This document shows positions 39,068-40,326 of a stretch of DNA of 64,000 nt, piece by piece. The stretch is taken from assembly GCF_026239695.1 (NCBI RefSeq), contig NZ_JAPIVS010000002.1:620001-684000 (forward strand). The letters run 5' to 3'. The notes beneath the pieces were generated by a model, which saw nothing but the letters and a program-made list of their open reading frames with translations, was not told the origin of the DNA and did not search any database. Position numbers and translations under genes: made by a program. This DNA comes from Pedobacter sp. MC2016-15. Lineage in GTDB: Bacteria > Bacteroidota > Bacteroidia > Sphingobacteriales > Sphingobacteriaceae. The first letter of the stretch is position 1, and each line of letters starts with the position of its first letter.

Positions 39068-39101
39068 AAAGAGAGATTCCAGGTTACTGGAATCTCTCTT
39101 T
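39068..39101. terminator. Bidirectional terminator overlapping the DUF2027 stop codon
   Basis: A perfect 15-bp stem: 39068-39082 with 39087-39101. The four-base loop holds three bases read as the TAA stop on the minus strand (39084-39086). The stem's AAA/TTT ends give a short T-run on both strands. It therefore serves both the M1 peptidase gene and the convergent gene, whose last five codons are in the stem. Confidence 0.88.
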
Positions 39102-39719
39102 TAATTTCTGCATGTCCAATACTGGTGCCGGTTCGTCGAGCCTGATCAGCCAGCCTTTCTGTTTGAGCAGGGCAATCTCAACTTTAGCTACAGAAAGATC
39201 CTTTCCTTTGATATTTTCTTCATAAACAAGTGCTGCAGGAGGTTCTACATTCGCTGCGGTAGAGAAGAGGACCTCAATCTTAAACTTCGGCCACAACTGG
39301 ATATTGCCCATATTGGCAGAGTATACTCTTTTTGTGCTATTCGCCGGAATGGCAGCAGCAAACTCACCTTTATAGTTGCCTCCCTTTTCTGTGGTCATGC
39401 TCGCCAGCAGCTGGAAGGAAGTTTCATTGACCAGGTGAAAGTGTGCCACCACAGCACTGTGCTGATCGGCCACCAGCGCAAGATAAACACCCTCTTTTTT
39501 GAATTCTGCTACCGGCGCGGCAACCTGCTGTCTGTTGCTGACCACAGCATTGTCTTCCGGGATATCGCCATGTACCAAGGTCACTTTTGAAGCAAGTACG
39601 GGAATCTCAAAATCATTGGCATCTGTTACGCCAATCGTGTCTTTATCAATGATGCGGGTAATGGTACCCTCTATATTTTCGTCTACAAAACGAACGAAAT
39701 CACCTAAATTCAAGTTCAT
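39084..39719 (-). CDS. DUF2027-domain protein without the usual Smr domain
   Basis: A 211-residue cytoplasmic protein of unknown function. It begins LNLGDFVRFVDENIEGTITRI, an SH3/KOW-like beta barrel, then the DUF2027 beta-sandwich (about 70-185; VYLALVADQHSAVVAHFHLVNET). Related Bacteroidetes proteins, as I recall, continue with a C-terminal Smr nuclease-like domain; this one stops at LKERFQ, inside a terminator stem. Whether it is naturally short or was shortened is not known. The reading frame is intact and codon use is ordinary. Confidence 0.65.
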   Translation of the reverse strand: MNLNLGDFVRFVDENIEGTITRIIDKDTIGVTDANDFEIPVLASKVTLVHGDIPEDNAVVSNRQQVAAPVAEFKKEGVYLALVADQHSAVVAHFHLVNETSFQLLASMTTEKGGNYKGEFAAAIPANSTKRVYSANMGNIQLWPKFKIEVLFSTAANVEPPAALVYEENIKGKDLSVAKVEIALLKQKGWLIRLDEPAPVLDMQKLKERFQ

Positions 39720-39810
39720 AATTTTATGTCTAATCAGAGTATTCTACTCTATTTACTACAAACCTAATGAATTATCAACAGATCACACCTGAGATATATC
39801 TTGCTTGTAC
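39720..39810. other. Spacer between DUF2027 gene and palindromic element
   Basis: Ninety-one AT-rich bases without a credible gene. TACCTTTG-type text at its right edge runs into the palindromic element. Confidence 0.4.
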
Positions 39811-40057
39811 CTTTGTTCGTGGTTTGTTCGTGGTAAAGCTATACTTCCACTATAGTTAAGCTATGCCTGGGCTATACCATGTTTACCCCATCTCTACTCT
39901 AACTTTACTATAAATCTACTCCTTGTTTACCCATTTGGTAAAGTTAGGGTTAAGTTGAGGTAGAGATGGGGTAAACATGATATAGTCTGACTATAGACCA
40001 GGGATAGTGAGACTATAGTTTAAGGACGAACAAAGTACGAACAAACTAAGAACAAAA
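39811..40057. repeat. MITE-like palindromic element with short tandem repeats at its ends
   Basis: Two arms of roughly 100 bases face each other around 39910-39937. The best part is exact: 39878-39897 is the reverse complement of 39960-39979 (20 bp). Outside it both arms carry the module CTAT-n-CCTGG-n-CTATA in opposite orientation, and the ends carry tandem TTTGTTCGT units with an 11-base step (two on the left, three as complements on the right). No open reading frame or transposase fits inside. It ends just before the promoter of the VF530-type gene. Confidence 0.8.
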
Positions 40058-40081
40058 CCCTCATTAATGTGCTATTGTTTT

Positions 40082-40089
40082 TATCTTTG
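40082..40089 (+). promoter_or_regulatory. -7 box before the VF530-type gene
   Basis: TATCTTTG, a full match to TAnnTTTG, 15 bases before the ATG. No -33 TTG at the usual distance, which would fall in the end of the palindromic element. Confidence 0.4.
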
Positions 40090-40104: not shown

Positions 40105-40326
40105 ATGACAGAAGAAAAACAAGCCAACAATCCCCTGCACGGGAAAACCCTGGAGTTCATTCTGAAACAACTGGTGTGGCATTATGGCTGGCCGGAACTG
40201 GGCAAGCTGATAAAGATTGCCTGTTTCAATAATGATCCCAGTTTGAAGTCGAGCCTTACATTTTTAAGAAAAACAGACTGGGCCCGGAAAAAGGTGGAGA
40301 AGCTTTATTTGAATACTTTTCATTAA
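40105..40326 (+). CDS. VF530-type small DNA-binding protein (DUF2132)
   Basis: A 73-residue protein beginning [29 protein letters not shown]. The whole sequence, with [38 protein letters not shown], matches my memory of the VF530/DUF2132 family, a small helical fold named after a Vibrio protein with reported DNA binding. An upstream in-frame ATG at 40069 would overlap the -7 box, so I start at 40105. It lies between a palindromic repeat and the rpsL promoter; a regulatory role is possible but unproven. Confidence 0.75.

Follow-up and report, generated by a model that had tools for sequence, protein, structure and literature searches.

A 247-bp non-coding palindrome precedes a VF530-type gene in Pedobacter sp. 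MC2016-15, and the question that it raises is whether such a sequence is a mobile element, a structure that acts in a transcript, or a run of sites for a protein. It lies in the window, by which is meant here the whole 64,000-nucleotide stretch of contig NZ_JAPIVS010000002.1 (positions 620,001 to 684,000) that was analysed. A preliminary description of the window, made from the sequence alone, took the palindrome for a non-autonomous mobile or REP-like family rather than a plain terminator.

Architecture of the element

The features of the element and of its immediate neighbourhood are listed below in window coordinates.

39811 to 40058, no strand: whole element, 22 units of 11 bp in two inverted arms with a 7-bp centre
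39812 to 39833, + strand: left T block, two copies of TTTGTTCGTGG
39834 to 39877, + strand: left C block, four units nnnnnCTAT(A/G)n
39878 to 39932, + strand: left M block, five units like CATGTTTACCC, with YTAC at unit positions 6-9
39931 to 39937, no strand: 7-bp centre CCATTTG, between the innermost TAC and GTA
39938 to 39981, - strand: right M block, four units, reverse complements
39982 to 40025, - strand: right C block, four units
40026 to 40058, - strand: right T block, three units, ACGAACAAAGT / ACGAACAAACT / AAGAACAAAAC
40082 to 40089, + strand: TATCTTTG box upstream of VF530, which we take to be a promoter box
40105 to 40326, + strand: VF530 gene (PF09905, E 8e-33), first gene to the right of the element
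39084 to 39719, - strand: divergent 211-aa gene, first gene to the left of the element

The element consists from end to end of 11-bp units, 11 in each arm, which fall into three kinds of block that run 2 T + 4 C + 5 M in the left arm and 4 M + 4 C + 3 T in the right, and the 7-bp centre about which they are inverted shares its first two bases with the last left unit. The arms, 108 nt each and 18 nt apart, are 72% complementary, and they include a 20-bp exact inverted match, CATGTTTACCCCATCTCTAC (39878-39897 and 39960-39979). Their mean self-match at a lag of 11 is 0.58, a value attained in none of 5000 first-order Markov simulations in which the maximum was taken over lags 3-33, and within the window a lag-11 self-match of at least 0.5 (88-nt window) is confined to 39779-40071. 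The coordinates and motifs of the preliminary description were correct: the 20-bp segment is where it had been placed, the repeated CTAT-n-CCTGG-n-CTATA modules can be read in the sequence, and the TTTGTTCGT-type end units stand at 11-base steps as a left pair and a right triple, the outermost right unit with one mismatch. The 11-base step had been ascribed to the ends only; it is indeed found there, but it spans the entire element. No gene of note was found within the 247 bp, in agreement with the statement that no protein is encoded. On the side of VF530, the sequence TAnCTTTG is present upstream of the gene in seven of the eight relatives examined, the eighth (G153) lacking it in the stretch tested.

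A palindrome of this length might be selected as a long hairpin in RNA, in which 11 bp is one turn of the helix. The RNA folds of the two strands, which the preliminary description had proposed as a check, are strong (z -12.5 and -10.7; as DNA, the + strand folds with z -12.5). The hairpin accounts for little of the likeness between the arms, as can be seen when the agreement of units that face each other is separated from the agreement of units in general. Over 40 elements, opposed units agree at 4.17 of 8 variable bases, non-opposed units in different arms at 3.88, and units within an arm at 4.04; in the 28 best elements the corresponding values are 4.68, 4.34 and 4.22. Opposed units agree slightly but significantly better than non-opposed ones (Wilcoxon p 0.004), in a comparison whose centre was chosen to favour opposed pairing. 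Mismatches between the arms of the 40 elements are of types other than G-T/A-C in 614 cases as against 325 of G-T/A-C, counted regardless of the direction of transcription. On the unit-agreement and mismatch counts we rejected the idea that selection acts chiefly on hairpin pairing: the arms are in the main inverted runs of similar units, to which pairing adds little. An identity with a known RNA was likewise rejected, as none of 11 weak Rfam matches, mostly to models of eukaryotic miRNA precursors (best E 3e-6), reached the gathering score.

Sites kept while units are replaced

A DNA search of the organism's own genome (G000; 5.14 Mb, 16 contigs) found six full-length copies, of which the other five are 70-77% identical to the window copy. 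They form groups (L002/L003, 0.92 alike; L006/L007/L009, 0.85-0.94, with L007/L009 at 0.94), while the window copy stands alone at 0.67-0.72 from the rest. Two copies, L002 and L009, lie between convergent genes, and L006, which belongs to the same BLAST family as the window element, lies 5' of a pair of DUF6266 genes. Beyond the six copies the search, run to E<=10, yielded only seven short matches of 15-22 nt, and shared ends below about 15 nt would escape it. The sole short match that touched the element ends, L019, turned out to be a further array, 5' of a DUF6266 gene.

Among 98 relatives only G018 matched the element at E<=1e-4 by DNA search. Of 145 genus genomes, only G000 and G018 carry the inner 18-mer, with at most one mismatch, in both arms; G018 has three such sites, and G013 and G043 have one match each. 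The preliminary description had held that a single copy, always at this locus, would argue for a local regulatory structure; the six copies in G000 and the three sites in G018 show a multi-copy non-coding family, which a plain terminator does not account for, as that description had maintained.

The architecture is more widespread than the letters of the units. The pattern TAC-N8 x4, N7, GTA-N8 x4, with at most three mismatches, occurs in 35 of the 145 genus genomes including G000, compared with none for the reversed control, and the unit sequences vary between genomes. This pattern was derived from the copies of G000, G018 and G163, in which the 7-bp centre spacing is alike by eye and was then built into the pattern, so that those three genomes are not independent while the remaining ones are; some of the three-mismatch matches (for example in G022 and G125) are one-sided arrays.

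The relation between site and unit sequence was followed at the gap upstream of VF530, which was examined in eight of 144 relatives, picked because they are closely related or because an array had been seen elsewhere in them. With G000 included, seven of the nine genomes (G000, G018, G120, G153, G024, G006 and G126) have an 11-bp array in this gap, with a lag-11 self-match of 0.61-0.80 (44-nt window) against 0.45-0.55 for the best other lag, and their units are mostly different. GTGGACT units are common to G006 and G126, and the G018 array has kept its outer TTTGTTCGT units together with different inner ones. The G153 gap, of about 1.3 kb, holds the start of another gene besides its array. The gaps of G163 and G023 are short and have no array (lag-11 0.36). 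The preliminary description had proposed a search for empty sites and target duplications; no target duplication was seen by eye when the G000 and G018 gaps were set against these two, but the flanks diverge.

At a second site, the gap 3' of an arginase-family gene, arrays are present in five (G000, G018, G153, G024 and G163; lag-11 0.59-0.68) of the 12 genomes measured out of 30 loci fetched, and the remaining seven genomes give 0.32-0.43. A third comparison concerns the gap that holds L003 in G000, which two common flanking genes identify with a gap in G120 (L080), where a different array and a DUF6266 gene are found. A site is thus kept between species while its unit sequence is replaced. 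This is also seen in the pairwise identities of the arrays. Within G000 the arrays are 0.753 identical (15 pairs), whereas at the three sites common to G000 and G018 they are 0.565, 0.667 and 0.646 identical, as against 0.649 for 21 non-orthologous G000-G018 pairs and 0.483 after shuffling; the flanking genes at the common sites reach 0.84 and 0.905, and the DUF6266 gene 0.69. Arrays at orthologous sites are therefore no more alike than other pairs, and copies resemble the arrays of their own genome more than their positional counterparts. The exception in G018 is its VF530 array: identity within G018 is 0.664 over all six pairs and 0.763 over the three pairs without that array.

Association with DUF6266 operons and a small HTH protein

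When the proteins of the 1.5-kb flanks of 39 element loci were clustered by blastp, one family, PF19781 (DUF6266), was found at eight loci, the array preceding the gene in every case, and the next-best family was a small HTH protein at four loci. The polarity recurs in 30 high-scoring DUF6266 loci of the genus, where a lag-11 self-match of at least 0.46 lies upstream in eight and downstream in none. Across the Bacteroidota, an array with lag-11 of at least 0.45 lies within 1 kb upstream of 53 of 80 DUF6266 genes and downstream of 5 of 80 (Fisher 4e-16). The 80 loci are the best 80 of more by protein similarity; one of them, L134 of Pedobacter sp. ASV28, is 100% identical to the first query sequence, that of genus member G055, which identifies the genus as Pedobacter. 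The threshold of 0.45 over 110 nt was fixed before this count but after the 30-locus genus survey. Flanks shorter than 1 kb entered the count downstream at L142, L145, L197 and L202 (L145, with none at all, being scored as a miss) and upstream at L140 and L151. Lag 10 reached 0.45 upstream of 46 of 80 genes and downstream of 2 of 80, and the other lags gave 0-9 and 3-10. In the loci inspected, the usual layout has an inverted 11-bp TTCGG/CCGAA array farthest from the gene and a 10-bp direct-repeat array between the two, the inverted array being absent upstream of DUF6266 in L211 and L202. The 10-bp arrays, seen among the 80 loci (L134-L213), have GGACA/TGTCA-like units.

Searching in the other direction, from arrays to genes, a CGAA-unit pattern matches 40 of 49 genomes with DUF6266 loci (269 matches against 12 for the control, summed with overlapping registers). 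For 15 of these genomes 73 arrays were listed, and 19 of them precede one of 34 DUF6266 matches at a distance of 157-509 nt, measured from array midpoint to match and with G211 represented only by the arrays listed for it; none lies within 700 nt 3'. Of the 54 free-standing arrays, 20 were inspected with their flanks, and two of these precede another gene whose N-terminus, judged by eye, resembles that of DUF6266. In the genus, DUF6266 accompanies the TAC-type elements in 34 of 35 genomes, as against 71 of 110 others (p 6e-5). The CGAA pattern, found in 50 of 145 genomes of the genus, shows a weak association of this kind (42 of 50 against 63 of 95 pattern-negative genomes, p 0.03), and its reversed control matches about 20 of the 145, mostly once (G135 11 times), so that single matches mean little. 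The window element fits this DUF6266-linked family: its T unit TTTGTTCGTG recurs in an array of its own genome directly 5' of DUF6266 on contig C1 (L019/L291), and its sister copy L006 precedes a DUF6266 pair. A decayed DUF6266 fragment (E 1e-7) was seen beyond the arginase gene of G120.

The link is not obligatory. By the above threshold no lag-11 array was found upstream of 27 of the 80 DUF6266 genes, and the CGAA array is absent at 15 of 34. Conversely, eight of the 50 CGAA-positive genus genomes are DUF6266-negative. One of these, G103, has nine CGAA matches at seven array sites, and no DUF6266 or HTH relative was found in the seven stretches fetched around them; arrays can therefore exist without DUF6266, and some may spread on their own. 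The G103 arrays (L296-L301) are short palindromes of 11-bp CGAA units, several of which have TTGCAC/GTGCAA-like ends by eye. In Leeuwenhoekiella, mostly non-coding copies of about 780 bp, 80-88% identical, are dispersed (L276, L278, L279 and L280; three in G221 and one in G226), and they hold CGAA 11-bp, 10-bp and GGGTGAA 11-bp arrays.

As for the protein itself, a sequence search of the PDB at E<=1 finds no relative of DUF6266, and the L134 protein has no match in the phage collection, the plasmid collection or PADLOC. In its structural model the C-terminal part, residues 111-213, folds like a fibronectin-type-III domain (Foldseek E 9e-5, VIA Z 11.7). The family was not named in any paper of the open-access literature searched, and none of the papers listed in title and abstract searches of that literature describes such 11-bp arrays; further papers may exist in both cases.

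In 55 of the 80 loci a small HTH_17 gene is found no more than 3 kb from DUF6266, a count that includes whatever proximity arises by chance. The HTH profile has only two matches in G000 at E<=0.001, each between two DUF6266 genes, and neither adjoins the window element; the array 5' of the first DUF6266 gene is clear at one of these operons (L288, lag-11 0.52) and weaker at the other (L287, 0.44, with five CCTAC units). Against the PDB, the profile finds a single sequence at E<=0.01, that of 6ama (E 0.0022), which was deposited as BldC-smeA-ssfA, BldC bound to DNA. The structural search with Foldseek also ranks 6ama first (E 0.023), followed by MerR-type regulators, with the excisionase RdfS at rank 7, and no match reaches E<=0.001. 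By both searches BldC is the closest solved relative of the DUF6266-linked HTH protein, at a modest similarity. Matches to PADLOC mad1 (E 8e-8 for L288, 0.002 for L154) and to NCBIfam MADS1 (29 bits, where the cut-off is 80) were taken as general small-HTH likeness.

The DUF6266 operons on contig C1 of G000 (L289, L290 and L291) consist of DUF6266, the small HTH gene and DUF6266, with a sigma factor in addition in L291, and the 5' array is clear at L290 and L291. Those of L289 and L291 continue with genes for a small membrane protein, for an endolysin-like hydrolase (PHROG 9589, E 6e-14 in one operon and 3e-15 in the other) and for a lipoprotein-like product, and L290 is similar by eye. These operons look like a phage lysis cassette without a phage, as if domesticated.

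A candidate operator array and its alternatives

The explanation that we favour, at somewhat less than even confidence, is that the element represents a free-standing array of operator sites for a BldC/Xis/CarH-like protein and a member of a family of such arrays that extends across the Bacteroidota. It takes as its basis the unit architecture, the copies, the conservation of sites with turnover of units, the link between arrays and DUF6266, and the HTH gene beside DUF6266. In each of the two opposed arms the 11 helically phased units would be candidate protein-binding sites; a small winged-HTH protein of the kind encoded in DUF6266 operons would bind them cooperatively and head-to-tail, one protomer per 11-bp unit; and the filaments of the two arms would converge on the 7-bp centre and bend or coat the DNA, with effects on the neighbouring promoters of the divergent 211-aa gene and of VF530. 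The binder, its filament here and the effect on VF530 are our inference. It is doubtful, given how strongly the unit sequences differ, that one binder would serve all array subfamilies, and promoter control is not obvious at L002 and L009, which lie between convergent genes.

According to the parts of the literature drawn on here, winged-HTH proteins of the BldC/Xis type bind direct repeats one turn apart in head-to-tail fashion (PMC7498355, PMC5859096, PMC11963761), and CarH binds tandem 11-bp repeats (PMC9304148). The operators of BldC, Xis-type recombination directionality factors (RDFs) and CarH resemble the element in that their direct repeats are spaced by one DNA turn, as are the 11-bp steps within each arm. 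Those operators are bound cooperatively, head-to-tail in the case of RDFs and BldC, and the candidate binder encoded in the linked operons here resembles BldC. They differ in that those described in these sources comprise 2-7 repeats, placed at a promoter or an att site, as against 22 units in two inverted arms, and in that the arrays here include many free-standing copies whose unit sequence is replaced between close species.

The strongest alternative, which we consider unlikely though by no means negligible, is a non-autonomous mobile element of the MITE or REPIN kind, mobilized by an unidentified transposase for which the 11-bp units would be sites and the arms a hairpin. Several observations accord with it: the copies are multiple and intergenic and some are nearly identical at different sites (L002/L003, L007/L009), the 780-bp copies are dispersed in Leeuwenhoekiella, several short G103 palindromes have TTGCAC-like inverted ends by eye, the VF530 gaps of G163 and G023 have no array, and the likeness of opposed units is in slight excess. 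However, no parent element with these ends was seen in G000 by DNA search at E<=10, the VF530 gap is filled by an array in seven of the nine species examined with mostly different units, and no target duplication was seen by eye at that site, where the flanks diverge. The element is like a MITE in being short, non-coding, inverted and multi-copy, but the entire element is an 11-bp array, and a plain MITE was rejected because the DNA search of G000 found no element with the same terminal inverted repeats.

The comparison with REP/REPIN-RAYT systems is of the same mixed kind. Both consist of extragenic palindromes that are dispersed, with one copy linked to a gene, and in both the copies are alike within a genome; the differences are that REPs are 20-40 bp long (PMC3733652) and high in copy number, as against about 247 bp and six copies, and that the partner genes here are DUF6266 and HTH. 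The Y1 transposase (PF01797), the RAYT/REPIN partner and the transposase family searched for, gave no match at E<=1e-5 in G000 and six further array genomes, and it is present in three of the ten array genomes (G103, G114 and G210); REPIN/RAYT was rejected on its absence from G000. The preliminary description was thus right to see a multi-copy non-coding family, while its MITE or mobile reading was not supported, the sites being kept between species as the units are replaced. Some mobility or gene conversion of copies may nevertheless occur.

We think it improbable that the arrays are centromere-, anchor- or nucleoid-type sites which organize the chromosome, their proximity to DUF6266 being that of a site to the gene of its own protein. 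Arrays are few per genome, some sites are common to species and some lie near the putative binder, and parC of plasmid R1 offers a precedent, since its 11-bp repeats are bound by an adaptor protein, ParR, which needs at least two of them (PMC9426499); as described there, however, parC consists of direct repeats on a plasmid. Against such a role, array sites vary among relatives, and many members of the genus have no pattern match, though the patterns miss some array types. A structured RNA or bidirectional terminator, in which the palindrome would be a long RNA hairpin, is about as improbable: the strong folding of both strands and the position of L002 and L009 between convergent genes agree with it, but the arms keep the unit motif rather than the pairing, their mismatches are mainly of other types than G-T/A-C, and no Rfam family reaches its gathering score.

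A broader proposal follows on from the operator reading, and is put forward as a possibility that is on balance unlikely: that the Bacteroidota have an undescribed control system in which the BldC-like HTH protein of the DUF6266 operon polymerizes on the arrays of its own operon and on dispersed ones, and in which the code carried by the arrays evolves rapidly along with the binder, units being replaced in concert between close species at sites that persist. The array-DUF6266 association joins two unexplained things, the scattered long palindromes of the Bacteroidota with their 11-bp step and the DUF6266 gene family. If the linked HTH protein is the binder, these would be, to our knowledge, phased operator arrays of unusual length, and the family would provide a natural, fast co-evolving protein-DNA code in many independent versions.
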